A DNA stretch of 64,000 nt. It comes from Sycon ciliatum (taxonomy: Eukaryota > Porifera > Calcarea > Leucosolenida > Sycettidae). The notes beneath the pieces are model-generated. The model saw only the letters and a list, made by a program, of their open reading frames with translations. It did no database searches and had not been told where the DNA came from. Shown piece by piece: positions 12,601-32,735 of the stretch. A program made the position numbers and the translations under genes. Where the stretch lies: positions 19,659,745-19,723,744 of the forward strand of contig NC_088643.1 in NCBI RefSeq assembly GCF_964019385.1. Reading direction: 5' to 3'. Numbering within the stretch: position 1 is the first letter of the stretch; the number at the start of each line of letters is the position of its first letter.

Positions 12601-14306
12601 TGGAGAGACAGCAGTTTTTCTTTGCTTTTTCTTCAAGCGATTGTTGTCGCTCTTTACTCCTTGTTCTTTCCTCTACAAAACTCCTGTAGTCGTCGAGTGC
12701 CTTCATGATGGCTGTGAAATTGGCTGCCCACAGTAAAACTCCGTGTTTGAGAGTGCTTTGAAGATGTTTCGCGTCCTGATGGATCAAAGTATGAGCGCTC
12801 CTTGTGGATTCGATTACATATAGGTGAGTTGTTCAAGAAATCAGAGTCTTCTTTCTGTCTCTGCCCTCACGCTGGCACAATATCAGCTCTATATCCATGA
12901 CAGCTCGCACCTCCCGTAAACTGCATGACTTAGATATATTTTCGCCCTCCGTGGTGATTGAAGACCCATGGAAGAATTTATTATGTTCAGAATGATGTCC
13001 TAATATAAAATAAAATAATTCTAGGGAATTGTCATAGGGTATTTTTTGGAAGGATGGAGACACAGAGGGAGAGAGAGCACTGTTTGAAGTGTTTGTCTCA
13101 CTGTAATTACTCCACATTATTGAATGTTGTGTGATCTACTCTATATTTTCCACAATGGTTTTTCCTGATTTGCGGGATCTCTTCTTTTGCTGTTTGCGTG
13201 TTTACAGGAAGTGGCTGTCTGGTGTAACTGCACCAGATCCCTGGGGAAATTAAGTCAGATGCAGAGGCAGGGTCGTCCAGTGATGCAACACTGCCGTTCT
13301 GTGTGCAGCGTTACCGCTAATACCCCCGGCGAAAACACAAAAAAAGACAAACACGTGAAAAGACTACAGTATTGACCGTTCTGCTAATAAATGCATGACT
13401 GCTCCGACAGTCGTTAATCGAAACACAGAGCACCAGCATGATGTTTTCATATTGGGAACCACACAACAGCTCAATTCTCAAGCCCAAAAATTGATGAATA
13501 CAAATACAGAGCGACGCAACAAGAGATCATCCGGCAACCAAACAAACCTGGGTCTAATGCACTGGATAGTCCTGAAATACGCAGGCCAGACAAAGCAGTG
13601 CAAGCACATAATGTTACAAGGTACATGCATTGCAGAACAAAGTGTAACCAAAGATACACAGGGTTATAGCTGCACACTTGTGCATGTCCTCGCTCAGCCA
13701 AGAACACACGATCATGATGATAGAAACAATCCGGGGAAACACGCTAACACCGAAGTAAGCATCAACACGTAAATAGTGCAGCTCTGAAAAAATTACATTG
13801 ACATGAACATTGGTGTGTCGAGTAGTATCAGGCTTGAATAATCATCAAACCAAGACTTCATCAGGTCCCAGACGCTGAGATCGCACGCCGAATGTGAAGT
13901 GCATCTAGCCTTGAACCTGTCGCACAAGGCACACATATATGGCAAAATGACATCCACTCTGATTATTTCCAGAGGCCAATCATGACAGAACACAGAAATG
14001 AAACCACGGGCTCAACCAAGTAAACGCAAAGGAAGTTAGTCAAAATAATCCATGCAGTGCTCTTTTAATTGCAGCGCTGATTGCAGTGTTGCGTCATAGC
14101 CCGATACCCGCTGAGCACAGACACAACTCCATTCGTCAGGGGCAAGACATACTCTTTTGGAATAAAGTCATAAAGTACAGCGTTCCAATGACATTACGGA
14201 CACCTCGTGCAAATGCATGGTCTGTTCATCTGGCCGACTCGGCCACGCATGAGAGTGTGTGCATGTACATGCGCGCGCACGCGCAACACACACACACACA
14301 CACACA
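12601..14306. other. Gene-poor stretch
   Basis: No supported gene or RNA. A plus frame at 13395-13772 is open for 125 codons but is low-complexity in composition and matches nothing I recognise. The stretch ends in a (CA)n tract at 14284-14306, next to the Polinton insertion site. Confidence 0.5.
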
Positions 14307-14312
14307 TGTATT
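14307..14312. repeat. Polinton target-site duplication, left (TGTATT)
   Basis: TGTATT immediately precedes the left TIR and recurs exactly at 27247-27252 after the right TIR. A 6-bp duplication is the Polinton/Maverick integration signature. Confidence 0.9.
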
Positions 14313-14347
14313 AGTAGTATAGTGCGGTGAGGGTTCTGGGACAAAAG

Positions 14348-14670
14348 TGACCTTTGACCCCTGGCTGCCAAATAAGGAAGAATAGTCCATATATGGCAGA
14401 TGACCTTTGACCTTTGAGTTGACCTTTGAGCTGCCATATAAGGCTGAATAGTCCATATATGGAAGATGTCATTTGACCTTTGTGGTGACCTTTGACCTTT
14501 CCGTATACGGATGAATAGTCCATATATGGAAGATGACCTTTGACCTTTCCATGTGACCTTTGCTGTGACCTTTGACCTTTCCAAAATACGGATGATTGGT
14601 CCATATAAGGAATGTGACCTTTGACCTTTGGGATTGGTCTATATATGGGGTGAAGTGTCCTTATAAGGAA
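14348..14670. promoter_or_regulatory. Array of CArG-like boxes and DR1-like motifs (left TIR)
   Basis: TGACCTTTGACCT, the complement of the nuclear-receptor DR1 consensus, occurs exactly at 14401, about 14486, 14534, about 14565 and 14614. A one-base variant is at 14348. Exact CC(A/T)6GG boxes, the SRF/MADS consensus, occur at 14368, 14387, 14434, 14453, 14520, 14601 and 14659. Another box is at 14723 and one at 15044. The two motif types alternate. Binding is inferred only from consensus match. The array may simply be a tandem repeat whose unit happens to match. Confidence 0.5.
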
Positions 14671-15000
14671 GGTGCACGTGGTTCAGGTCATAGTAGGCAT
14701 CTTCCATAGTGGGGAGAAGTGTCCTTATAAGGAAGTTGTACACGAATGAGGTCATAGTAGGCATCTTCCATAGTGGGGTGAAGTGTCCTTATAGGGAAGG
14801 TGTACACGGATGAGTCATAGTAGGCATGTGCCATAAAGGGTGAAGTGTCCTTATAGGGAAGGTGTACACGGATGAGGTCATAGTAGGCATGTGCCATAGT
14901 GGGGTGAAGTGTCCTTATAGGGAAGGTGTACACGGATGATGTCATAGTAGGCATGTGCCATAGTAGGGTGAAGTGTCCTTATAGGGGAAGGTGTACATGC
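14645..15000. repeat. Minisatellite, unit about 62 bp, inside left TIR
   Basis: Five to six tandem units, each holding GGTCATAGTAGGCAT, CCATAGTGGGGTGAAG and GTCCTTATAGGGAAGG. The right TIR has the mirrored array at about 26590-26880. Some units keep CCTTATAAGG, others have CCTTATAGGG. Confidence 0.9.
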
Positions 15001-15174
15001 TGTAGTTTTTAAATAAGGCATATTCCATAGTGGGTGGAAGATGCCTTATATGGCATGCGTATCCTGGCCAGGTCATATAAGGCATGCAGTCATAGTTGAA
15101 ACAAGTGTCCTTATGATCATTGAGGGCCTTTCTGTCTGAGGCTTTGAAGAAAAGAAGCATCATGTAACAAAGCT

Positions 15175-15367
15175 GGGTTCGTACCCGCAACCTCTGCGAA
15201 GGTACGGAAGGCTTGAACTGTACCAAACGACCAGGACGACTACACACAAGACCCAAGCCTCAAATCGCCTATTTATACCCGGACCGTAAAGAAGGAAAAA
15301 AACGCATCATGTAACAAAGCTGGATTCGTACCCGCAACCTCTCGTACTGAAAGCACCAACTGTACCA
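15175..15367 (-). other. Two tRNA-like A/B-box segments (left TIR)
   Basis: On the minus strand, TGGTACAGTTGG followed about 35 nt later by GGTACGAATCC (15322-15367), and TGGTACAGTTCA followed by GGTACGAACCC (15175-15225). These match the internal RNA polymerase III A-box and B-box patterns. The whole is too diverged to fold as a working tRNA. Mirrored copies lie at 26246-26443. Confidence 0.45.
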
Positions 15368-15525
15368 AACCACCACGGACGACTACCATAAAGAGGGAAG
15401 GCTCAAATTGACTAGTTATACTAGGACGTATACATACATGTACATCCTCAGAACACTCGTTAACTATAATGTAGGGAATAAAGGAGGCAGAATGAATTGG
15501 CTACAAAAAAAAGTAACACACACAC

Positions 15526-15623
15526 ATACACACGCGCGCGTGCGCGCACTCTCAGCAACTGAATATACCATACATCATCTATCAAATAAATGAGGCAGAC
15601 ACACATACACACACACACACACA

Positions 15624-15656
<33 letters not shown>

Positions 15657-15753
15657 CAACATACACACACACACACACACATACACACGCGCGCGTGCGC
15701 GCACTCTCAAGCAACTGAATATACCATACATCACCTATCAAATAAATGAGGCA

Positions 15754-15787
<34 letters not shown>

Positions 15788-15803
15788 ACACACGCGCGCG
15801 TGC
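15526..15803. repeat. Direct repeats of about 80 bp separated by (CA)n
   Basis: The block from TACACACGCGCGCG through CAACTGAATATACC to AATGAGGCAGACACAC occurs at about 15526-15606 and 15682-15762. A truncated third copy starts at about 15785. The period is about 155 bp. It lies between the left TIR and the polymerase gene. Confidence 0.85.
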
Positions 15804-16300
15804 CGTCAGGCGAAATTACTGGTCAGTCGGCGTCACGCATTTTTCACAAAAATTTGCGTTTCACCTGCTGGGAGAGTATGCGTGTACTCGAGTCTCATCC
15901 TGAGCCCATTTTTTTCTTCTTCTTTTCAGCTCTAGTATAGCTGTATTTTTCTTGCAAAGCCGTCCTCGATTGTTGTGTTCGTTGTTCAAACGAAGTGGAC
16001 ATTCAATCATGAAGGCAGAGGACATAGGAGCCTGATTGGAGTTTCTCGTGGCATAGGACGGCCACACAGAGACACTTTGGGATTTTCTGAATATAAAATA
16101 CCGTACGCACGATGCTGAGATCAATTTGTGCGATATCAAATTGTTTGTGATCTACCACATCGAGCAGAACGGGATCCAAACACAAGCTTACCGACGTTTA
16201 GGCTGCCGACCTGACTGGACAAATGATCCCTGTCTTCACCAGACGCCAGAAGTCGGACACCATGTCCTTTGTCGCGACGTCCATACTCCAAAAAGAACTC

Positions 16301-16500
16301 NNNNNNNNNNNNNNNNNNNNNNNNNNNNNNNNNNNNNNNNNNNNNNNNNNNNNNNNNNNNNNNNNNNNNNNNNNNNNNNNNNNNNNNNNNNNNNNNNNNN
16401 NNNNNNNNNNNNNNNNNNNNNNNNNNNNNNNNNNNNNNNNNNNNNNNNNNNNNNNNNNNNNNNNNNNNNNNNNNNNNNNNNNNNNNNNNNNNNNNNNNNN
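16301..16500. other. Assembly gap (200 N)
   Basis: Exactly 200 N, probably a fixed-size placeholder. It is followed by (GA)n and falls in the 3' part of the polymerase gene, so the polymerase C-terminus cannot be read. Confidence 1.

Positions 16501-16552
<52 letters not shown>
16501..16552. repeat. (GA)n tract abutting the gap
   Basis: GA repeat right after the N run, probably the reason the assembly broke here. A less regular GA-rich segment runs on to about 16604. Confidence 0.95.
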
Positions 16553-16555
<3 letters not shown>

Positions 16556-16982
16556 AGAGAGAGTGAGAGAGAGAGAGAGAGAGTGAGAGACAGAGTGAAA
16601 GAGACTTTAACTCACCGCAATCCGACAAATTCCGTTAGAAGTTCCCCGCCCATCTCATCCTTGAATTTTCCCAGCTCTTCTTATTTTGTCTGTGTGGAGT
16701 GGGTGATCAGCCTTGAAGTTCGAGGTGTCGTAGTGCTGTAGGTCTGTCATCATATCTTCCTGCATGCTCTCAGTCTGAATCTCAATGATCACCTATCAGT
16801 AGCAGTATAGAGCAGACGAATATCCTCACCATACCTCTTCTTCAGTACATTGTAATAGAACGTAAACATCAAGACACTTAGATAGATCAAGAACACTCAT
16901 GCCAACGTAAACCGGCTTATCCAACTTGACGCTCACTCGGTGGCTGAAGAGCGATATGAAAAGAAAAAAGAAACAAACACAA

Positions 16983-17031
<49 letters not shown>

Positions 17032-17404
17032 CGCACATAGTTGAACACCTGCTTGAATAGTATTCTAAAGATGAAAAATATGAAAAAGAAAGAAGGAATT
17101 ACAATTGTGTAAGCATTATAAATATTCAATAAAGATCTAGTTTTTCTTTCAGATGCATCAGAAATCCTCACCTACACACCCCCAGAAGATCATTGTCGTA
17201 GATAACGACACGGTCGAAACTAGGCTTAGCGAACAGCTTTCAAGAGCCGGTGTTTTCGTCTTCGGCTCTCATCAGATTCAAATTGACACGTTCCTAACGT
17301 TCTCCATAGTCTTCCCGAATACTGCATTATTTAGCAACTGCAGTTGACACACACACACACACACACACACGGAGAACAAAACTATTTTAGAAAAGCAGCA
17401 TCAA

Positions 17405-17563
<159 letters not shown>

Positions 17564-17964
17564 AAGAGATACAGAGAGCACCCACCTTATACAAGTCTTT
17601 CTCGAAATCGCTTGACGCCTGTTTTTCTAAGCTCCGTATTCTTGCGGATGTAAGGCTCCATCCATGGCTCTTGTTGGAACGATAGCACTTGACTCACACT
17701 AGTCACCTTCAGACCAAGCTCGATATACAGCTGGAGGTTTCTATAATGTAGTACATAGCTGGCTTTGTTGCATAAGTTTGTTACGAGCTTTGGCACGTTC
17801 AACCCCGTCACCTATACGGGATCATATGAGATAAAGAAAAGAAAAAGAAAAGACCCATCAGCACATGAACTCACGCGCACACATCATATATCATGTATCA
17901 TATCCAGGCAACAGACGTACAAACAACCTCAGTCATGAAAGCTATATAGTATCGATACAGTAGC

Positions 17965-18006
<42 letters not shown>

Positions 18007-18603
18007 GCACACACAACTATTTTACCTTCAACTTCTCAATCAATGTCCGCTGATATGGCGACATCATGTCTTCCGTCACAGTCATTCGCTCTGGTGCTGG
18101 TGGATAATCGTTCAGATAGTCATGAACCTCCTCTGGCACGACTAGATCAACTTGCAGGAAGTAACCGCGAGGTGAATCTATCGGTGACTTCAGGATAGTG
18201 TCCAGGAGTTCCTCTGTGGGCTCTTCCCACTGGAAGTCGGACACGGGCAAGTGCTGGGACATGGCCCAACCATAGAGATTATTGGCATCTAAATACTGGA
18301 TGTATGTCGTTGGTTTCGAATCATCGTATTCTTTCACTTCAGGGTTGTTCGCCCTGACATGACGGTGACTGACCATGCTGATTCCTCCTCGCATTCCACT
18401 TTCGACAAAATTATGCATATCCACGTCTGTTAGTAGCTCCAACGATGTTTTTGTTGTCTTCAGCAAGGCATCCCATGCAAACCCAGGGAGAGTGAAATAA
18501 TGTACGGGGTCCAACCCGTATGTCTCAAGAGCCATATCCCTGAAATGTTCGAAAACATCGCAGAGCAGAAGTACATCTGAAACATAAACACACACACACG
18601 CAC

Positions 18604-18643
<40 letters not shown>

Positions 18644-20239
18644 CACACACATACATACACAGAAGCAGATCATCTTTTTTAATCTCCATGTCTTAAACAA
18701 GCCATGGGCGACCTATTTTCCAAGAGTCCTGGAAGCAGGGTCTATATCAAACCTGTAAAGTATCAACTGGGTCACAGGTGACTCGGTACTATATTTTCAA
18801 CCCGGTCCAATCACCACCCAACCGAGTCAATTACCCGGCTCACCCACCTCTGGAGCAGATACTGGGTAAGTGGAGAAGTAGACTATGACAACAAACAGAT
18901 TTTTTTTTTAAATAATCGGTATTGTAATCGCTATTGTACTCTCACCTGTTGTCAAGTACAGATCATGATAATCTCCAAAGTTGTTGCAGTTGAAAACATC
19001 CCACACACTTCTGGCATGTGCATACTCATCATCGCTGACTCCCTGGATTTATACACATACGCACATACACATATACAGACATACGCACATACACATATAC
19101 GCACGCACGCACGCACGCACACACACAGATGTGCGCATACACAGAGCCATATCAATATTCAAAGACCAGTCCATAGATAGGAAACAAAGAACGACCACCA
19201 AACAAGAGAGCAGAGAAAAAGCAGGAAAAAACAAGTATCTTAGTTCATATGAAAACTTAATAATCTTTACCTTGCCAGAAAGAGTCGAGTGAAATGCTTC
19301 TTTCGGTGGTAAGGATAGCTCTTCGAAAGTGTCGAATGATGTGACATGTTCATATGGGTACACTCCTTTTCTCATCACCAGGGCGCGCTGCTCAGCTTGA
19401 GTAAAGTAGTCCTCTGTATGATGAAATGCATCCGTCGGAGTGGACTGTACGAGTTTGTCCAATGATGCATTCAGAAATGCTAGACTATCAAGGAATGTGA
19501 ACTGACGCCACGTAAATGCAATATACTTCTCCGTGTTGGATGGAATTACATCAATCTTGCCGAGGTGTCTCGTCTAATTTTCAAAAAAAAACAAGAAAGA
19601 AAGAAAAAAACAACAACACGAGAAGAAGGACAAGCATAAGGTTGAGAGAAATGTTTTTGATGAATGCCATCAAGAGCAACAACCATGAGAATAAGGAATT
19701 TTTTCAGCACAAAGGTATTCAATCAACTTACACGAATGCGTCCTTTACTGTCCGGATACGTTACAATGTCCGTGGTAGTCTTTCCGAGAGTTGATATGAT
19801 GTGGTGAGCATCATAACCCTTGAGGTTGTGAAAGATGACTGGGATTCTAATCGTGTGAGGGCAAATTCTAAGTCTCAAGTTGCATCTATTATGAGCAGCT
19901 CCACGAAATTCACCCGTGATATGATCATGATCGGCCACACGATCGGCCAGGAGAGGCTCATCGCAAATCCAGCAATTAGCAGCTTCTTGGAATTGTTGTC
20001 TCTGCGCTTCAGTCATAGTCATAGGTAGAGGAGTGGATAAGTCATCTCTGATAGTTTCCTCATCACTTTCTAGCTCGAGGAGAAATCGTTCAATTGCATC
20101 AACGCCTGAGATGCACAAAAACACATGCACGAACAAATACACACACACACACGCGCGCGCACGCACACGCGCACGCACACACACGACCGCACGAACACAC
20201 GAATACATACGCACACACACACACACATCATTTGATCAT

Positions 20240-20592
<353 letters not shown>

Positions 20593-21470
20593 CAAAAGAA
20601 CATAAAGAAATAATGTTACCTCTGTAGAAGAAGCGTTTCGTTTGAAGTCCATCAGATCTGACAATCACATAACTGATTGAACACGGATGATGTTCACTTT
20701 CACGCACCGTCTTTGCACCATGCTGGGTGTGAGGTATGATCGGAGTAATCAACGACTCACAATCTTCATAGATGACCTAGGATAGTAGTGTTCACATCAC
20801 ATCGCATCACACACCCACACACACACACACACAGACACACACACGCACACACACACGCGCGCACACACACAAACACACACACACACACGCACACACACAC
20901 ACACACACACGCGCGCATACACATACACACATACAATAATGTGTGTTAGTAACCACATCAATTGTACTGGAAAGTGTCCATCTATATCAAGAACATATCT
21001 AGGGATTATAATGTACTTGCATGTTGACTCAAGGAACTAGGTGATACTAAACAATAGCACATGCAAGGCTTTAAAGAATAACTTACATAGGGGCATTTCA
21101 GTTGCTTGTGATAATTCTTGAAGCAAACGTGTTCGCCTTTCTCTGGCAATATCGTCCTTGCAATGTGATGATTCGAGCAATAATTGAGATGCTTGGCTAG
21201 CATTTCCTCAGAACGATGGCCCGATAGACAGCGCATACAGTAGTGTGTTTGATTGTTATGCTTAGTGCGATCAGAACACAGGCTGTTGAAGTTCTTGATC
21301 CATACCCAATGTCTTTTCGTGTCACTACTTATCAACATCAGGTTCACAGCTAGTTCCGGGCTTTTGCTTAGTTGCAGAGGATACACCTTTTTATCATCGT
21401 CCACCCCGAACACATTGATGAGCAGCCCATTCATCTTCTCTACCTGCATGCATGAAAATAGAAGTATGTT

Positions 21471-21474
<4 letters not shown>

Positions 21475-21527
<53 letters not shown>

Positions 21528-21616
21528 GCGCGCGCGCACGCACACACACACGCACGCACACACAAACACACGCACACACACACACACGCACGCACACACA
21601 AACACACGCACACACA
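21475..21616. repeat. (CA)n with CG blocks in polymerase intron
   Basis: About 140 bp of alternating purine-pyrimidine sequence with a pure CG block at about 21525-21537. Comparable tracts lie at 16985-17025, 17967-18015, 18588-18640, 19058-19127, 20140-20226, 20812-20925 and 21840-21945, one in almost every polymerase intron. Confidence 0.93.
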
Positions 21617-21878
21617 TGCATATAAATGAATAGTACTCTTACACTCCTCATGAACTACAAAAACACCTCAGCTAAGTTTGATATTAACTCACCTTCTTGA
21701 TATCTGACAATTTTGCAGGGAAATCCACACCTGTAAAGTCGAGATCTTGCGCATAGGGAGCATAGTGGCTGACTCACTCAGTATGTACCTCTACTGGATG
21801 CAGCGCTGAAAGTAGGGCCCACCTTCAAATAGCAATGCACGCACACACACATACGCAAGCACGCACCGCACGCGCGCT

Positions 21879-21945
<67 letters not shown>

Positions 21946-23322
21946 GTAGGTGCACAAGCATGAGTAGTTACAGTAAATCTGCTGTAGTACTTGTACTTGA
22001 TCATCATCACAACAGTGAACTACATACATTACGAAGAAACTCTTCTGCTCACAATTGTATTGGGAAGAACAGCTCGTACTCGGATTTATCATGTACACCA
22101 GGTAGTGATCACATGTTTACATATTCCTGCTCGTACTCACTTTAGACACTGCTCATCATCATTCTTCACGTTTATAATGGCCTTCTTCAACTGGAGATAG
22201 CGTGGTAGAGGGAAGTAGGAACTACCTCGAAGTGGGCTGTATTTAGCCAAGTCGACAAACATCCTGACAACTCCATCTATCACCCACCCAGATCCCTCAT
22301 TCACCCACGTATCGAGCTGTAAGAATAACAGGATAAGAAAAAAGAAAAAGACATACGAACAACGATCCACCAGAAAATATGTCGAGCACACTGCGAGAAC
22401 TGATTCCGATAAGTCTCTCTCCGTCTCTCTCTCTCTCTCTTTCTCTCGCATAGTACATCAGCATCCATAGAGTGGAGAGCACAAGCATGCACACTGTTAT
22501 TATTCACACTCAGCTCAAGTCGAGAAACAGCTGGAAACAAACAACCCATAATGTTTCTGTTCACTGCAAACTATCAACAGCATGCAAGATACCATGCACA
22601 CGCATACAGAGCTAGAAGTAATTTTTGAATTTCTTTTGAATTTTATTTCTCTCTTTCTTTCTTTCTTTTTGCGGATCGTTCGATGAGTAACATTACGTAA
22701 TTACGTGTCGGCCGTCGGCGTGACGGCGACGTCGCGGTCTCCCATGCGCCAACATATCGAAACCAAAAACAACGGTGAAAGAAAAACAACAGCTCCCGAA
22801 CGAATGCCCATTTTGGCGCTGCGTACGACATACAAGCCAGCCGGTTGTACAAACAACTACAACTAGAACGGATACGGTCTGTGTGGGTGACCCTTTCTTC
22901 TTCATCATAGATTATGCATATATGACAATCCGGTATCTCCGGTATAGACGGTACCGTACTCACTCGTCTTTCGATGTCGGCATAGGACGAGTCTAGCGCA
23001 TCACGAATCTCGTGAGTGTTCAGCACGGTTATCGCCGTGTTTCTGAGATACGGCTGTGCATGTTTAAAACACCTTCTTCGCCCTTGTCTAGTTTCAGCAG
23101 AATCTGTACGGTCAGACCCAATTTAAATTGCATCGTGTCCAACTCTTGCTCGAGCAGAGAGACAAGCGTCGCATCCATGTGACTGAAGAATTGGGAAAGA
23201 TCTTTCCAATCATCATTAGGTCTATACACTAAAGACTTGATAGTGCTGCTACGATGCAGTTCAATGAAAGTTGGGGGTCTCCTCTTAGCTGGAGGTCTCC
23301 CGGGCTCATAGTCAGGCTCCAT

Positions 23323-23774
23323 GATTCATATGAGCGCTGACGAGCGTGTAGTTCATATTAAGTAGTGTAACTGTAGACTCGTAAAGGTATGGCTTGTGGT
23401 GGAGACGTGTATCAACTTGTCTCAATACGTTTCAACATGTCATCAAGGTTATGGACTCTTGATGTCATGAGAGTTAGATCAAGTCGTCAATTTATGGAGA
23501 GGGACTGGCGCCGATCCTCTGGGAAGAGATAGTGCACTATGTGCATGGTACAATAGTTCAACAGCGGCTGATGAACTCAATGTATGGTAAGAGTTAGTGC
23601 ACTATGTGCATGGTGCAATAGTTCAACAGCGGCTGATGAACTCACGAAGAATGTAGCTGCTTCTCGCTGATTGGTGGAGAAGAAATGATCACCGCATGGA
23701 AGAAATAGGGCTATGTATAGTGCAATACTTCAGAACAGCATAGTCATTCTATTAGAGTTATTATCAGAGTTACA
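23323..23774. promoter_or_regulatory. Divergent intergenic region between polymerase and plus-strand genes
   Basis: The only space between the minus-strand polymerase start and the plus-strand ORFs, so it should hold both promoters. It contains a 66-bp-period direct repeat (23525-23579 and 23591-23644, sharing AGTGCACTATGTGCATGGT and CAACAGCGGCTGATGAACTC). A TATGTATA word lies at about 23712 ahead of the first plus ORF. Promoter activity is inferred from position only. Confidence 0.4.
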
Positions 23775-24182
23775 GTGTTACAGTGTTTTCCCATATTTCC
23801 CATATTTCTCATTATGCTTTGTTATATTGTTCATACTATGCCTGTGGGCGATGGGAAACTGACGACAACACTGTCGAGAGCAAGTGATGATGCTCGTAGA
23901 CGGATTCTGGAGCGTGCCGAGCAAATTAGAACGGCACAATTGCTGAGTGCGAGTGAGGCGGAGGAGATGTTCTGCGGTTTGAGCAGAGGCGTATTGGAGT
24001 TAGAGGACAGGAGCGCGTACGTCCCGCGTGTCAGTCTAGGTTCCGGCAGGTTTGCGCAGTTCGATGAGAGCCAGACCTTCATGATCTTAGTATCGCAACC
24101 TGCCGGAGCCAGGGAATGGCGGGCGTACGCGCTTCATGGCTCTTTGGAGCAACGGATTGGAGAAGTAATGGATGAATGGTAG
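23775..24182 (+). CDS. Polinton small ORF, 135 codons, function unknown
   Basis: The first ATG gives a hydrophobic start (FPIFPIFLIMLCYIV). A second ATG at residue 22 (MPVGDGKL) would drop it and leave a soluble protein, and I cannot decide between them. The rest has a helical, charged stretch (DDARRRILERAEQIRTAQLL) and a C-terminal part ending GEVMDEW. No known Polinton family motif (ATPase Walker A, capsid, protease) is visible. The stop overlaps the start of the next ORF (24172). It could be a remnant of a capsid-side gene, but that is a guess from position. Confidence 0.5.
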   Translation: MLQCFPIFPIFLIMLCYIVHTMPVGDGKLTTTLSRASDDARRRILERAEQIRTAQLLSASEAEEMFCGLSRGVLELEDRSAYVPRVSLGSGRFAQFDESQTFMILVSQPAGAREWRAYALHGSLEQRIGEVMDEW

Positions 24183-24336
24183 AACAACAGAAGCAAAATT
24201 GATCCATCCCGAGCATTTCATGATCAGAGCACAAAAGGTGATGGTGGACGATGCATCATTCATTCAACAGGTGCTGAAGGACAAAAGCAGGATCACTCGT
24301 ATCATCAAGGATATCCTGAGCGGACGCTCCATGTGA
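24172..24336 (+). CDS. Overlapping 54-codon ORF, function unknown
   Basis: Starts at ATG 24172, 11 bp before the end of the previous ORF, in the +1 frame, and runs to TGA at 24336. The sequence is charged and helix-prone (begins MNGRTTEAKLIHPEHF, ends IIKDILSGRSM). It may be a separate small protein, or the original C-terminus of the 135-codon ORF displaced by a frameshift. The protease ORF follows 34 bp later. Confidence 0.4.
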   Translation: MNGRTTEAKLIHPEHFMIRAQKVMVDDASFIQQVLKDKSRITRIIKDILSGRSM

Positions 24337-24370
24337 TCACGTGCCAAATATTTTCAGGCTATGATCAAGA

Positions 24371-25954
24371 ATGGACTATCCTCTCAGCAGTGCCGATATC
24401 AAAGGAAGATTGAATGGTGTCGGAGGGTTCGTGGGCTGTACGAGTTACGACCTCTTGCCACCCTTGAACAATGGAGACTTTTGTATCGTCAACACCGACA
24501 ACGTTCTACCGGTGTACGATGCAACGGAAGGCGGACATCATTGGTTGACCGTGTGTCGCGAGCAAAACGTGATCTTGGTTTTCGACAGTTTCGGACGCAG
24601 TCTATACACTATGGAGCAAGATTACACTGAACCTGCACTGTGCGATTTCTTTAAAGAAGCCTACGCAGACTGTAAGATCATCACCAACACCCAAGCCGTT
24701 CAAGACAGAAGCACAGCAGTATGTGGATGGTATGCCATATTGATGGGAAAGCTATTTTCCAAATATGGTCTGGATGAAGCACTTCGAATTTTCCGAAGAG
24801 TCTTTGATGATGACGAAAAGCTGGAAAACGATAAACTGGTTCTCAGTTTAGGTGTCTTGCAAGGCGGTGGTGGAGTCTTGTGGGACACCAAAGTGCAAAG
24901 GGCAATTCATGATGGAAGACCGAAGAAGAAGAAGAAGAAGAAGAAGAAGAAGAAGAAGAAGAAGAAGAAGAAGAAGAAGAAGAAGAAGAAGAAGAAGAAG
25001 AAGAAGAAGAAGAAGAAGATACAACCCGCACAGTTCCATACGAAACTGGCTAACGAATTGCACAAGCCCAGACGAGTGCATTTCAAAAGACGCAAGGTGA
25101 AGAGCAGAGCAATTGACCATATATGGAGTGCAGATCTCGTGGATATGCAACGGTTTGCCCGAAGCAATAAGAACATCAAATTCCTGCTAACAGTCATCGA
25201 CTTATACAGCCGCTATGCCTGGGCAATGCCTTTGAAATCGAAGACGGGTATCGCCGTGAGAGATGCGTTCGATGAGATTGTCAGTACATCCGGAAGAACA
25301 CCGTTAAAACTCTGGGTAGACGAAGGCAAGGAATTCTACAATGCCCCCATGAAACGATGGTTATCACAACACAACGTCATCATGTACAGCACCCATAACG
25401 AGGGTAAAGCGGTGGTGGTCGAGCGCTTCAATAGAACGTTGAAGTCAAGAATGTGGCGTCACTTTACAGAGAAATCCACGAACACGTACCTCAACGTCCT
25501 ACCTCAACTACTAGACCGCTACAACCAGTCAAAGCATAGAAGCATTGGGATGACACCTACCGAAGCATCGAACGGTAGAATACCAAAAGATGCAGATCAA
25601 CAAGACCCCCTGCAGTCAAAACCCAAGTTCAAAGTGGATGATGAGGTGCGCTTAACCGTATCTAAGCGTCATTTCGAGAAGGGCTACACTGCAAACTGGA
25701 CGGAGGAAGTATTCAGGGTGGATGACATCCTACCAACATCACCACACACCTACCGGATTCGTGATCTGATGGGAGAACACATCATCGGATCGTTTTACGA
25801 AGCAGAACTGCAACACGCCAGAGAGACCGGTTTGAGATTCGATAAGGTGTTGAAATACAACAAGGATCAACGTCTTGTGCAATGGAAAGGCTACACGGAT
25901 AATAAATTCAATACCTGGCTCACAAAGAAGAATGTGAACAGTCTTAGATCATGA
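24371..25954 (+). CDS. Polinton adenain-like protease fused to DDE integrase
   Basis: 527 codons. Residues 1-180 are a cysteine protease of the adenovirus-protease type found in Polintons: His57 in GGHHW, Asp72 in VFDSFG, Gln111 and Cys118 in VCGWY, in the family's order and spacing. Residues 185-216 are 32 lysines encoded by (AAG)32. Residues from about 220 form a retroviral-type integrase: a basic N-terminal part, then the catalytic triad Asp255 (SADLVD), Asp317 (WVDEGKEF) and Glu351 (VERFNR), and a C-terminal chromodomain-like module (about 440-520; LVQWKGY). The two are normally separate Polinton genes. Here one frame runs through both, with no stop between them. The integrase would cut and join element ends. 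The protease would process capsid proteins. Either the fusion is real or a lost segment and in-frame microsatellite created it. The catalytic residues look intact. Confidence 0.9.
   Translation: MDYPLSSADIKGRLNGVGGFVGCTSYDLLPPLNNGDFCIVNTDNVLPVYDATEGGHHWLTVCREQNVILVFDSFGRSLYTMEQDYTEPALCDFFKEAYADCKIITNTQAVQDRSTAVCGWYAILMGKLFSKYGLDEALRIFRRVFDDDEKLENDKLVLSLGVLQGGGGVLWDTKVQRAIHDGRPKKKKKKKKKKKKKKKKKKKKKKKKKKKKKKKKIQPAQFHTKLANELHKPRRVHFKRRKVKSRAIDHIWSADLVDMQRFARSNKNIKFLLTVIDLYSRYAWAMPLKSKTGIAVRDAFDEIVSTSGRTPLKLWVDEGKEFYNAPMKRWLSQHNVIMYSTHNEGKAVVVERFNRTLKSRMWRHFTEKSTNTYLNVLPQLLDRYNQSKHRSIGMTPTEASNGRIPKDADQQDPLQSKPKFKVDDEVRLTVSKRHFEKGYTANWTEEVFRVDDILPTSPHTYRIRDLMGEHIIGSFYEAELQHARETGLRFDKVLKYNKDQRLVQWKGYTDNKFNTWLTKKNVNSLRS
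24923..25018 (+). repeat. (AAG)32 trinucleotide repeat, in frame, 32 Lys
   Basis: A pure AAG tract between the protease and integrase halves. In-frame expansion adds only lysines, so it does not break the ORF. Such length is prone to slippage. Confidence 0.97.
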
Positions 25955-26197
25955 TTCACAATGTCATTCATATGAAATAATAAAAAATAAAATAAATGAA
26001 ACGAGTGCTCTGTACGCGGGTTGACTTGCATCATGATCCTGCATGGGTAGTGATTGTTGGCGACTGTCCATCTGTTGGATGTCATGCTGATCCCACCACC
26101 ACCACCACCCACCCTTCTTTCCATGCTCGATGACATTGTCGATAGGTCGCTGATGTCTCATCCAGCGAGACCTTGGTGAGCTTCGGTCCCAGTATAT
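25955..26197. other. Integrase 3' flank before the right TIR
   Basis: AATAAA words at about 25978-25995 follow the integrase stop and could serve as its polyadenylation signal. A (CCA)n run lies at 26094-26110. No gene. Confidence 0.5.
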
Positions 26198-26245
26198 CTA
26201 GTCAATTTGAGCCTTCCCTCTTATGCCTAGTCGTCCGTGGTGGTT

Positions 26246-26443
26246 TGGTACAGTTGGTGCTTTCAGTACGAGAGGTTGCGGGTACGAATCCAGCTTTGTT
26301 ACATGATGCGTGTTTTTCCTTCTTTACGGTCCGGGTATAAATAGGCGATTTGAGCCTTGGGTCTTGTGTGTAGTCGTCCTGGTCGTTTGGTACAGTTCAT
26401 GCCTTCCGTACGAGAGGTTGCGGGTACGAACCCAGCTTTGTTA
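26246..26443 (+). other. Two tRNA-like A/B-box segments (right TIR)
   Basis: TGGTACAGTTGG (26246-26257) with GGTACGAATCC (26281-26291), and TGGTACAGTTCA (26398-26409) with GGTACGAACCC (26433-26443). The box order and spacing of about 35 nt fit a polymerase III internal promoter. The two segments are tandem relatives with flanking GAGAGGTTGCGG and CAGCTTTGTTACATGATG. They could be a tRNA-derived SINE captured in the TIR. Confidence 0.45.
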
Positions 26444-26896
26444 CATGATGCTTCTTTTCTTCAAAGCCTCAGACAGAAAGGCCCTCAATGATTGTTTCAA
26501 CTAATGCCTTATATGACCTGGCCAGGATACGCATGCCATATAAGGCATCTTCCACCCACTATGGAAGATGCCTTATTTAAAAACTACAGCATGTACACCT
26601 TCCCTATAAGGACACTTCACCCTACTATGGAATATGCCTTATAGGACCAAACCAGTGTACACCTTCCCTATATGGACACTTCACCCCACTATGGCACATG
26701 CCTTCTATGACCTCATCCGTATACACCTTCCCTATAAGGACACTTCACCCCTTTATGGCACATGCCTACTATGACCTCATCCGTGTACAACTTCCTCATA
26801 AGGACACTTCTCCCCACTATGGAAGATGCCTTATATGACCTGAACCACGTGCACCTTCCTTATAAGGACACTTCACCCCATATATAGACCAATCCC

Positions 26897-27190
26897 AAAG
26901 GTCAAAGGTCACATTCCTTATATGGACCAATCATCCGTATTTGGAAAGGTCAAAGGTCACAGCAAAGGTCAAAAGGTCACATGGAAAGGTCAAAGGTCAC
27001 AGCAAAGGTCAAATGTCATCTTCCATATATGGACTATTCATCCTTATAGGGAAAGGTCAAAGGTCACCACAAAGGTCAAATGACATCTTCCATATATGGA
27101 CTATTCAGCCTTATATGGCACCTCAAAGGTCAAAGGTCAACTCAAAGGTCAAAGGTCATCTGCCATATATGGACTATTCTTCCTTATTTG
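26897..27190. promoter_or_regulatory. Array of CArG-like boxes and DR1-like motifs (right TIR)
   Basis: AGGTCAAAGGTCA, the DR1 consensus, occurs about six times, the first at 26899-26911. CC(A/T)6GG boxes such as CCTTATATGG (26916-26925) and CCATATATGG alternate with it. This mirrors the left TIR array, so either orientation of the element places an array next to host DNA. Confidence 0.5.
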
Positions 27191-27246
27191 GCAGCCAGGG
27201 GTCAAAGGTGACTTTTGTCCCAGAACCCTCACCGCACTATACTACT

Positions 27247-27252
27247 TGTATT
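27247..27252. repeat. Polinton target-site duplication, right (TGTATT)
   Basis: Exact match to 14307-14312 directly outside the right TIR. Confidence 0.9.
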
Positions 27253-27284
27253 CGGTGCGTATGGTGTACCAGTTGCGGGACAAT

Positions 27285-27628
27285 AGAGAGGTTCCGCACT
27301 ACGTAAAGTTGAGCAACTTTACGTTAGTGGGCGGGGAAAACCCGTGAATTCGCGAGTTTGCACTCCACTTACGGAAAGTTGTCTACGTAGAGTACGTAGA
27401 TAGGGCTCTGATAACGTAGCTGGTCCGTAAGTGGATTGGGGTACAAATTTATGACTCTCTCCCCAGGTCGATCTGGTCGTACACTGCCGCGTTCGGAGTT
27501 GCCAAGGGCAGCTACGTGATTTGAAAACTCCGTATGGCGGAACGCAGATGCGCATGCAGTTTACGTAAGACTTTCCGTAGATCGACTACGTTTTTTACTA
27601 ACGTAATTACGTTATGCGGAACCTCTCT
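27285..27628. mobile_element. Foldback MITE with AGAGAGGTTCCGCA termini
   Basis: The left end is AGAGAGGTTCCGCACTACGT. The right end is its complement (TGCGGAACCTCTCT). AAT flanks both ends and may be a 3-bp target duplication. The interior has many ACGTA words. It shares its terminal theme (GAGGTTCYGC) with 28717-29062. No ORF. Confidence 0.65.
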
Positions 27629-28289
27629 AATGAAGATGGAATCATTATCATGATGTTACATGTACATCTACAGTGTATGTTTAAGTGTAAAGTAAATTTT
27701 ATTTTATTGCACATTTCTTCGACACAACTAATTACTTACTTCACATGTTCGCATTTCTCATAATCGATCCACCTGCACTCCGTATCAGTCGAGGAAAAAT
27801 TCTCGCAGATATACACTAGTCACCACAGCCATGTGATGACATTGGGATGGGCCCCAAGCACGATTGCACTCTCTAGTTACAATAAATTTGGCCAGATTAT
27901 CTGTGAAGACAAAATGCAATGCATAGCGGCAATCGATGGATGAAGAGAGAGTTTGTAAATACCTATCTTTCCACTTGTTCAGGAGCTTACCTTTTGGAGT
28001 TCACATCGTTTACACGATCTCTCATGCTGTCTTGCACCTTGGTTTTGTTGACCATGGATACGCCATCCCAGAAAACATTCTACAGGAGCTACTAATGCAG
28101 AGCGTTTTTCACGCTCGATCTCGGCGATCTACCTTGTCACGCCAATAAAATCCTCCGTGACACTGGCTACAGTCACAAGAGACGTCTCAATAAGGTAATG
28201 AGCACGACAACATCGTCGAGATCAAGGACAAAGAGAAAACAAAACACTCACTGAAAACAGCAAAGAAGAAACGAAGAAATGTACACGAT
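27629..28289. other. Unassigned stretch
   Basis: No recognisable gene. A 70-codon plus frame at 27936-28148 has no motif I know. Weak similarity to the sequence above repeat B copy 1 continues here. Confidence 0.45.
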
Positions 28290-29619: not shown

Positions 29620-32600
29620 TATTATTATTTGCTTGGATGGCGGGTTGAACTCCCGTCAGCTCTCCTTCTGGAGGGTATTTCTGTTCCTCGGACTATGTCT
29701 AAGCCAAGTTTTTTTGACAAATGAGTAGTGATAGCCTGAAGCCTGGGCTTGTTTTTCACCGGAGACATGAAAGAGCTGGAGCGCCGTCGTGCCGTGTTGG
29801 CACGTTCAACGTTCGTTCGCTGCGGACTAAAATCAAAAAACAACAGATTATTCAGGACTTTGATACCTACCGCCTGGACGTCCTCGGCCTGACTGAGACA
29901 TGGATGGAAGGCAACGGTATCGATGTGTTGGACAATGGCCACACATTGTATCGTTCTGGAGGCACTTCGTCCAGAGCTGGAGTAGGAATTCTCGTCAATA
30001 AAAATATTGTAAGAAATATCGATTCGTACCAATTCTATTCGAACCGAGTAGTTTCGCTGCGGATACTGCTAACTGGAAGTCGTAACAGTAGAGGGGTATC
30101 AATCATCTGCTGCTACGCTCCTACCCTACAACGTTCCACAGCTAACCCTGTTGAGGCTGATGAATTTTATTCTTTGCTGAGCAAAGCTGTTGGAAATGTT
30201 AATCGTCGTGACGTCTTGTGGGTACTGGGTGACATGAATGCCAAGGTAGGCAGTTCGCCAGCTGGCTCATCGAACCCAGTAGGAATGTACTCAAAACACA
30301 GAATGAGTAATGACAATGGAAGCCGTCTAATTGAATTTTGTGAGATACACCACCTGCTACTAGCTAACACAATGTTCAAGCACCGCATGCAGCATCGTGC
30401 AACGTGGTTTGCTGATGGCTTGTGTCATAACGATGGGAATCAAGTCAGGAACATGATAGATTTTATCATGGTACGGAAATCGGACGTGTCAATTGTCACT
30501 AACGCGCGGTCATACGGAGGCTTCATAACCCGATCGGATCATCATCCAGTAATCGCGGATGTTCGACTTTCTTTCAAGAAGTCGAACAATGCTCCAAAAG
30601 CCAACCACCGATGCTTTGTAACATATAACCCGCCTTCTGCCGACACGCAGAAACAATATCAACGTATTCTGTCTGAGTCACTACCCGTCGTAGCGTCACC
30701 ACCACCGTCATCGCAGGGAGAAATTGATACTCTATGGAACAGTTTTGTGTCGACTGTACATGGTGCCGCATGTACGTCTTTTGGTATTCAACCTCGGCGT
30801 GCTAAGCCAACTCGGAGCACAAATCCAACTATAAAACAATTATCCCAAGACCAAAAAGATCTCCACATACGCATCCATGCTGAGCCAGATCCTGCCAGAA
30901 GAAAAGTTCTAAAAGAAGAGCGCAACAGTATTCAGCACAAAATCAGAAAAATACTGAGGCAGGATGGAGACGACTTCTGGCAAAGGCAGGCAGAAGCTAC
31001 TGATGCTTTACGACCTGACCCACGCTCCTATTACAATGCAATCCGGAATCTGCGCCAAATGAAGTCGAACACCAACACTCCTCCTGTTCGGCTGGCAGAC
31101 GATGATGGCAATATCATGACAAGCATTCAATGGAATCTCGATACATTTAGTAAATACTTCCAGTCAATATTTCATCGCCCTGACCTACCCTGTGATTTCC
31201 GTGGCTCGCAAGATATCAATGATGAGGAATTGCCGTTTACCACCCAAGAAGTCACTTCAGCAATCAGTAAACAAAAAAAAGGAGGCGCCGTGGGACCCGA
31301 TGGAGTCAGTGCGGAAATGCTACGAGCTGCTAAGGACCTCCTTAGTCCTTGGCTAGCCTCTTTCTTCAATGCAATACAGAGTGTTGGTTATTGCCCTGAC
31401 GATATGCGCAGTGGATTGGTAGTACCTGTATACAAACCAGGCAAGCCACTCGGAAAACCGAAAAGTTATCGCCCCATCATGTTACTCTCTGTAGTGAGAA
31501 AGGTGCTGACGTCAGTTATTACTAAACGTAGCACGGATGACATCACCGTTTATGTCTCTGAAACCCAGGCTGGATTTCGTCCAGGTCGCTCAACCGCTGA
31601 TGGTGTATTTTACACAAGGTCGCTGTGTGAGCGGGCCTTGCTTGGCAACTGGACATATTCCGTCACCCTTCTAGATTTCTCTGGTGCTTTTGACACTATA
31701 ATTCGCACCACAGCACTTGACAGGTTAGAGGAGGCAGATATCAGCACAACAACCATCAAGTCTCTACTTTCCAACACGACAGCCAGGATCAAGCTGAGTG
31801 GCTCCCTGAGTCCCCCTTTCCCAACTAACATCGGAGTGGTCCAGGGAGACCCGATGTCCCCTATTATGTTCATAACATATGCAGAAGGCACAATGCGCAA
31901 GATCAGGGAAAGATGCACAATTCGCTCACCAATGCCTGCTCCAACAACGCAGTACGCTGACGATACTACTCTGCATAACCGAAATGACGATGAGGCGAAG
32001 GCTCTTGTTGCTGAGTGTGAACCTATATTTAACGAAGACAACCTCAAGCTCAATACACAGAAAACTGAATATGTTGATGTTACAAGAAACAGCAACGAAT
32101 GGAGATCAATCAAACTCCTGGGTTCTCTATTGGGCTCTGCAGAAGACGTGGACATGAGAATCTCAAAAGCAAACAGGGCGTTTGGTTCGATTTCTTGGAG
32201 ACGGCATTCCTTTCAATCCCGACTGTGTATGTTTAACTGCCTCATAATGCCGATCCTTCTATACAATTGCGGATTGTGGACTCTGTCCAAATTGCTGAAC
32301 GACAAACTGGACAAATGGCAACGGAGGAAGCTACGCGTACTGCTGCAGATTGTCTACCCGCAACGCATCACCAATAACAACTTATACACAGAAACAAAAC
32401 AATCTCCAGTTAGTGCCACATGTCGGCGACGCAGGCTGCTGTGGTTTGGCCATGTGGTGCGAGAGGGTCCGGAATCCGCCTCGTTCAAAGCACTGGAGCT
32501 ATCAATCAACACAAACGACATAAAAAAACCCCGTGGCCGTCCGCCATTGCGGTGGATAGATACGATTCGGCACGACCTGAAGGCAGCGGATCTCTCCGTG

Positions 32601-32735
32601 GAGAGCGCTCTCCAAGCTGCAGGAGATAGACTAACTTGGCTTGACACTGTTGACAGATGCGTCGACTCTGCTCCTGTCTAACAGGTTCAGGGAAGATGCG
32701 AGCTGTGTTTATTATTATATTATTATTATTTTTAC
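29620..32735 (+). mobile_element. Full-length non-LTR retrotransposon (LINE)
   Basis: A single ORF with apurinic-type endonuclease and reverse transcriptase, ending about 50 bp before a TTATTATTATT-rich 3' tail (32708-32733). Similar ATTATTATT sequence sits at the 5' edge (29620-29631), so the flanks may be a target duplication or a microsatellite target. Domain order, the short UTRs, the 3' microsatellite tail and the C-terminal FGHVVR...GRPPLRW motif fit RTE-like or related LINE clades. The clade is not certain. Confidence 0.85.
29721..32681 (+). CDS. LINE endonuclease/reverse transcriptase, intact
   Basis: 986 codons with no break. The endonuclease (about residues 25-275) shows GTFNVRSLR, LTETW, CCYAP, GDMNAKVG and SDHHPVIAD. 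The reverse transcriptase (about 535-790) shows SYRPIMLLSV, AGFRPGRST, LLDFSGAFDT, GVVQGDPMSP and the catalytic YADD at residues 745-748. The C-terminal part (about 900-970) has RRRLLWFGHVVR and KPRGRPPLRWIDTI, common to several LINE groups. The protein nicks target DNA and copies its own RNA there. All catalytic signatures are intact, so the copy may be active or very recent. The ATG at 29721 comes about 100 bp into the element, which is consistent with a short 5'UTR. Confidence 0.95.
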   Translation: MSSDSLKPGLVFHRRHERAGAPSCRVGTFNVRSLRTKIKKQQIIQDFDTYRLDVLGLTETWMEGNGIDVLDNGHTLYRSGGTSSRAGVGILVNKNIVRNIDSYQFYSNRVVSLRILLTGSRNSRGVSIICCYAPTLQRSTANPVEADEFYSLLSKAVGNVNRRDVLWVLGDMNAKVGSSPAGSSNPVGMYSKHRMSNDNGSRLIEFCEIHHLLLANTMFKHRMQHRATWFADGLCHNDGNQVRNMIDFIMVRKSDVSIVTNARSYGGFITRSDHHPVIADVRLSFKKSNNAPKANHRCFVTYNPPSADTQKQYQRILSESLPVVASPPPSSQGEIDTLWNSFVSTVHGAACTSFGIQPRRAKPTRSTNPTIKQLSQDQKDLHIRIHAEPDPARRKVLKEERNSIQHKIRKILRQDGDDFWQRQAEATDALRPDPRSYYNAIRNLRQMKSNTNTPPVRLADDDGNIMTSIQWNLDTFSKYFQSIFHRPDLPCDFRGSQDINDEELPFTTQEVTSAISKQKKGGAVGPDGVSAEMLRAAKDLLSPWLASFFNAIQSVGYCPDDMRSGLVVPVYKPGKPLGKPKSYRPIMLLSVVRKVLTSVITKRSTDDITVYVSETQAGFRPGRSTADGVFYTRSLCERALLGNWTYSVTLLDFSGAFDTIIRTTALDRLEEADISTTTIKSLLSNTTARIKLSGSLSPPFPTNIGVVQGDPMSPIMFITYAEGTMRKIRERCTIRSPMPAPTTQYADDTTLHNRNDDEAKALVAECEPIFNEDNLKLNTQKTEYVDVTRNSNEWRSIKLLGSLLGSAEDVDMRISKANRAFGSISWRRHSFQSRLCMFNCLIMPILLYNCGLWTLSKLLNDKLDKWQRRKLRVLLQIVYPQRITNNNLYTETKQSPVSATCRRRRLLWFGHVVREGPESASFKALELSINTNDIKKPRGRPPLRWIDTIRHDLKAADLSVESALQAAGDRLTWLDTVDRCVDSAPV

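Follow-up and report, generated by a model that had tools for sequence, protein, structure and literature searches.

CArG boxes and DR1-like repeats in the terminal inverted repeats of a Polinton-type element of Sycon ciliatum: a tentative case for host-factor docking

Why should the ends of a mobile element be filled with what look like binding sites for animal transcription factors? The question is raised by a stretch of 64,000 nucleotides from the calcareous sponge Sycon ciliatum (RefSeq assembly GCF_964019385.1, contig NC_088643.1, positions 19,659,745 to 19,723,744 of the forward strand), hereafter the window, which holds an element of 12,934 bp (14313-27246) whose two terminal inverted repeats (TIRs) carry arrays of CArG boxes, CC(A/T)6GG, alternating with repeats of the direct repeat 1 (DR1) type. 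The receptors that one would expect at a DR1 site are those of HNF4/RXR type. We tentatively predict, with a confidence somewhat short of even, that the TIRs of this lineage, here called family A, are docking platforms for sponge SRF-type and NR2-type factors, because of the identity of the motifs, the several flank contexts in which the CArG core is found, the subterminal place of the arrays, and the types of nuclear receptor reported for sponges, which are of the right kind.

The assignment of the element to the Polinton/Maverick type is supported by its ends, its 6-bp duplication and its rve integrase. Specifically, AGTAGTATAG opens the element at 14313 and its reverse complement closes it at 27246, and the target-site duplication TGTATT, read from the sequence, stands on the left at 14307-14312 (6 bp) and on the right at 27247-27252. 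An AGTAGT start, that is, a terminus of (AGT)2 type, is found in the window copy and in 40 of 40 TIRs taken from the genome (the start being placed by anchor match). The identity given in the sequence-only reading that preceded this work is borne out on these grounds, with the protease and polymerase matches lying under their cut-offs. For vertebrate Mavericks, PMC8097293 reports TIRs of 46-1,447 bp, termini of (AGT)2 and duplications of 6 bp; the element differs from the Polinton/Maverick pattern in its TIR arrays of CArG and DR1 motifs, and in that no packaging ATPase or capsid match was found among the eight open frames scanned with Pfam profiles. The left TIR (1115 bp, 14313-15427, + strand) runs from the terminus through an outer array of TGACCTT-type direct repeats alternating with paired CArG boxes (14368-14668, +) and an inner 64-bp tandem array with the CArG-like CCTTATA(A/G)GG (14646-14997, +) to an innermost part that corresponds to the repeats of 142 bp in the right TIR (15116-15427, +). 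The right TIR (1061 bp, 26186-27246, - strand) is organised like the left.

Exact CC(A/T)6GG occurs nine times in the left TIR and eight times in the right, exact TGACCTTTGACCT five and six times, in uniform orientation relative to the TIR end, and the half-site TGACCTTT 14 and 16 times. Between the TIRs (10,758 bases) there are two CArG boxes and no exact DR1, and the 51,054 bases outside the element likewise hold two and none. The sequence-only reading had counted nine CArG boxes in the left TIR and five or six exact DR1-like motifs per TIR, and we obtain the same numbers, the span that it gave (14313-15415) falling within the left TIR. When Markov nulls of order 1-3 were built from each TIR, the observed counts were reached in 0 of 3000 each; the order-3 maxima were 4 DR1 motifs against 5 observed in one TIR and 5 against 6 in the other, and 4 and 5 CArG boxes. 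However, such nulls do not remove tandem duplication, and since the sites lie within tandem units, which Tandem Repeats Finder (TRF) places at 66 and 81 bp in the outer and 64 bp in the inner part of the left TIR, the motif counts are not independent events.

These clear tandem units speak for a different explanation, in which slippage and unequal exchange multiplied a 7-bp TGACCTT repeat and a dyad with an A/T core, the copies look conserved because they are young, and the match to factor sites is idle. We hold such coincidental repeat growth to be possible, if rather doubtful. By our estimate, a random 7-bp unit would equal a DR1 half-site about once in 1,200, and CC..GG flanks are one of 4 to one of 16 options, before one counts the motifs that a reader would notice. 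The regular pairing of the CArG boxes argues the other way. In the six TIRs listed for spacing, CArG-type pairs stand 18-20 bp apart, mostly 19, including those of the degenerate inner array, into which the CArG-type boxes continue, mostly one base off consensus; steps between half-sites are mostly 7 bp and then 12-13 bp. Other copies often have exact DR1 pairs spaced by 19-20 bp, the window TIRs having one only (right TIR, positions 89 and 108). The alternation of the two motifs, also part of the sequence-only reading, was seen in the six TIRs read for it; in the others of the 40 what stands is the presence of the motifs themselves.

To what extent is the arrangement a property of the lineage? 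A 388-bp piece of the left TIR served as query against the 538-Mb genome; of 68 first-look candidates 40 were scored, and 40 TIRs were taken, the window's two included; at least one further TIR of this kind lies outside the 40 (beside L082). Both motifs are present in 40 of 40, with 6-16 CArG boxes (median 9) and 3-23 DR1 motifs (median 8). In L042 (G000:C2:2139400-2141400) the array is about twice the usual size, with 16 CArG boxes and 23 DR1 motifs. Such differences in site number between TIRs are what repeat growth would produce. Because the TIR query itself contained the array, a check by integrase protein was made: all 12 of the integrase loci with 99-100% identity to that of the window have both motifs no more than 1,573 bases 3' (CArG 6-10, DR1 6-15), as against 0 of 18 loci at 97%. 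The presence of the motifs beside these 12 integrases of the lineage counts against repeat growth.

An exact 6-bp duplication was found in 17 of 18 paired copies, the duplications of L040 and L060 being different, and four TIRs (L048, L063, L064 and L069) are without a partner among the paired ones. The 17 pairs with matching duplications have the array at each end, which would suit a role in which copies bring SRF and nuclear-receptor enhancers to neighbouring host genes; we think such action on the host very improbable. Common flanks were seen for L043 and L044 and for L067 and L068, and L064 has the left flank of L039; these repeated flanks probably reflect duplicated segments, so that independent insertions are fewer than copies. 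The copies are also young, as judged from the low substitution between left and right TIRs, which amounts to 0.09-3.3% for 15 of the 16 pairs measured and to 9.0% for one poorly aligned pair (L040/L060 and L042/L061 were left out of this measure). That youth is a further point for repeat growth, since it leaves little time for selection to show.

Against repeat growth stands the behaviour of the CArG core. The 40 TIRs together contain, over positions 41-800, 420 A/T runs with a length of exactly six, and 358 of them are flanked by CC..GG and 48 by TC..GG, with only 14 flanked otherwise; the CC..GG cases cover six flank contexts, in each of which the core has been kept. Of the 19 A/T runs of at least five bases that the window's left TIR has in its first 800 bp, 14 have CC/GG flanks. 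The sequence-only reading had itself offered growth by tandem repetition as the alternative, and as to origin this is right, tandem growth having certainly shaped the arrays, although it does not by itself explain 358 of 420 runs with CC..GG in six contexts.

Whether the motif cores change more slowly than their spacers was compared on 39 rows, L042 with its extra-long array being left out. Over all aligned columns, changes per column came to 0.59 for CArG, 0.36 for half-sites and 0.99 for the remainder. This contrast looked significant but leans partly on variable terminal columns and on the inner part, and it was dropped as a sign of constraint in favour of a version restricted to the outer array. 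Several results weigh against the docking interpretation here. In the outer array alone the contrast shrinks to 0.45 for CArG, 0.42 for half-sites and 0.65 for spacers, and circular shifts of the labels match or beat it in 16 of 174 cases (24 of 174 for CArG alone). At A/T columns the share of minor alleles that are again A/T is 7 of 21 for CArG cores, 21 of 79 for spacers and 5 of 14 for half-sites, and from the first two of these figures consensus-keeping changes are not favoured in the CArG cores. The commonest of the one-base-off forms, to which most boxes of the inner array belong, has 100 copies. The slower divergence of cores that the sequence-only reading had proposed as a check is seen in direction, the rate in cores being roughly two thirds of that in spacers, and within the array it is not significant, as repeat growth would have it. 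Judged from these alignments, conservation does not demonstrate function; it may just be that the copies are not old enough.

If docking is nevertheless considered, its steps can be set out from the sequence as predictions. An SRF-type MADS protein would bind CC(A/T)6GG and an NR2-type (HNF4/RXR-like) nuclear receptor would bind the DR1 repeats, in arrays that lie just inside the terminus presumed to be used by the integrase and the protein-primed polymerase. The bound factors could then stimulate the element's own ends, by opening chromatin, by helping replication to begin at each end, or as distal enhancers. The genes of the element point outward, with the DNA polymerase B (PolB) gene read leftward and the protease and integrase rightward, so that both TIRs lie downstream of genes and the arrays are probably not ordinary proximal promoters. 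Sponges are reported to have no more than two types of nuclear receptor, SpNR1 and the HNF4-like SpNR2, calcareous sponges having four SpNR1 paralogues (PMC8092661), and PMC2950128 gives two nuclear receptors for Amphimedon. The reported HNF4-like receptor of sponges makes the DR1 interpretation testable. However, the DNA-binding domains of sponge SpNR2 are reported to have an insert of 2-5 residues (PMC8092661), which may change the DNA site of the receptor and is a further point on the other side. Use of the arrays by host factors appears plausible.

Do other Polinton lineages of this genome have such ends? The integrase search scored 134 of 1731 candidates, with identity classes counted by hand. 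Among those scored, 12 integrases are at 99-100% to that of the window, 37 near-full-length ones at 94-97% and 52 at 77-78%, together with four shorter pieces at 95-96% and 29 at 59-65%. The 18 loci at 97% form family B, and they have the greater part of the DNA 3' of the integrase in common; two family B copies followed outward end together, with AGTAG(T/G) termini. Family C has an integrase at 78% to that of the window, the only one with which it was compared. Ends of families B and C were reached on one side each in two copies each, and they contain 0, 1, 0 and 0 CArG boxes and no DR1, which must be added to the points that tell against docking. Among the three families with ends reached, the CArG/DR1 arrays belong to family A alone. 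In the 2.5 kb beside the integrase at 10 loci of families C to G there is no exact CArG or DR1; polymerase-type pieces lie in nine of these 10 regions (all but L111), which shows that the ends were not reached there, and these regions were dropped as evidence.

In the place of the family A arrays, the subterminal region of family B has its own different repeats, of TAATACCCCATTTTT type, three times (two of them 18 bp apart), and a dyad, AAAAATGGGGTACTA/TAGTACCCCATTTTT. Family C shares this through its near-identical end. Family-specific sequence at a fixed place would suit a family-specific protein, and this brings in a third explanation, that the repeats are recognised by one of the element's own proteins (the polymerase or terminal protein, a small DNA-binding protein or a partner of the integrase), much as with the subterminal repeats known from other DNA transposons, with the likeness to SRF and nuclear-receptor sites accidental. 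We regard it as improbable. The integrase is an unlikely reader of the repeats, because the integrases of families A and B are near-identical (97.3% in DNA) and their subterminal repeats are unlike, and the DNA-binding domains found in the eight frames are those of the polymerase, endonuclease VII and integrase matches, with no other.

The same comparison indicates that ends and genes have not always travelled together. The family A terminus AGTAGTATAGTGCGGTGAGGGTTCTGGGACA (14313-14343, +) aligns to the family B end over 31 columns at 77.4% and to the family C end over 13 columns at 92.3%, while two comparisons of family B ends with family C ends (L115, L116, L117 and L118) give identities of 97% and 95% over 200 columns. 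The B end was reached on the integrase side and the C end on the polymerase side, and this position on opposite sides fits an inverted repeat. Families A and B have in common a protease-integrase (PRO-INT) cassette of about 1.8 kb (window 24176-25991, +; loci L075, L087 and L089), identical at 92.5% overall, beyond which the local alignment does not extend on either side. A near-equal integrase with a different end, together with an unlike integrase with a near-equal end, makes ends and cassettes mosaic, and these alignments suggest that cassettes or ends have been exchanged between Polinton lineages. This matters even if the motifs are idle, as classifications of Polintons by ends and by integrase can disagree. 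A bolder scenario, which we consider unlikely, is that the lineage captured a composite SRF and HNF4/RXR array for its TIR, so that two of the most ancient regulatory pathways of animals would control its replication or expression, and that it exchanges both ends and PRO-INT cassettes with other lineages.

Some known systems resemble the proposed docking in part. Transposable elements with nuclear-receptor sites, in Alu or in the long terminal repeats (LTRs) of endogenous retroviruses (ERVs), are cases of mobile DNA with AGGTCA repeats. To our knowledge, these cases are not Polintons and are not joined with CArG boxes in TIRs. Host Oct-1, like NFI, acts at the inverted terminal repeats (ITRs) of adenovirus. 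For NF-I the binding is to nucleotides 23-36 of the replication origin (PMC8160523). The family A TIR would be like the adenovirus ITR only in how it works, with sites of host-factor type inside the end of a linear genome and with protein priming, which is presumed for Polintons; it is unlike it in that the factors are others, the arrays extend over hundreds of bp, the element is an integrated transposon and the sites are predicted. Galileo and Foldback (PMC3573991) also have long TIRs made of internal repeats, but they use other transposition enzymes, and the opening of that abstract does not name CArG/DR1 arrays. Judging by titles and abstract openings, we found no paper that ties Polinton TIRs to CArG or DR1 sites. 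A collection of viral contigs gave no relative of the element through the integrase alone or through an alignment of 21 integrases, and 26 stretches in it matched a DR1-type 16-mer.

Among the genes, a single frame covers protease and integrase (24365-25954, +), with an rve integrase match (E 1e-9, 39 bits against a cut-off of 32.6) and a Peptidase_C5 match, the adenovirus-type protease, just under its cut-off (E 4.2e-4, 20.5 bits against 21.3). A (GAA)33 run at 24922-25019 separates the two, and because it reads as lysines they share one open frame. Pieces assigned to the PolB gene, interrupted by microsatellites or introns, span 18017-21638 (-). One of several, 18017-18712, matches DNA_pol_B_2 at E 7.9e-4 and 18.9 bits, below the cut-off of 25.8, the piece at 19723-20235 matches Endonuclease_7 above cut-off (E 5.1e-6), and four polymerase-gene pieces have homologues next to integrases of other families. 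The stretch 23029-23325 (-) is probably the N-terminal part of PolB, on the strength of its position and its likeness, with no Pfam match and no match beside integrases of other families. A small open frame of 153 amino acids (23721-24182, +) is without a Pfam match.

The period of 142 bp was called by TRF only at 26184-26458, in the right TIR. In the innermost TIR parts (15116-15427 and 26186-26492) a string like a tRNA T-arm, GGTTGCGGGTACGAACCC, was spotted by eye; an ARAGORN search of 13500-28000 gave no tRNA, and an Rfam search of the same interval gave seven matches, all under gathering scores. Beside the element, an open frame of 987 amino acids (29718-32681) looks by eye like an intact endonuclease and reverse transcriptase of the long interspersed nuclear element (LINE) type. 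A zinc-finger gene of the window matches the EukProt protein scpid75693/scgid16766 with 99% identity over 93%, and since PMC6526912 uses the scpid prefix for Sycon ciliatum, this points to that sponge or a close relative as host. Elsewhere in the genome, a pair of family A TIRs spanning 29 kb (G000:C5:29401928-29431240) surrounds an integrase of family C type at 29414330. The same flanks are found at C5:28556701-28571234 on a segment of only about 14.5 kb, and this difference in length suggests that the 29-kb pair is a nested insertion.
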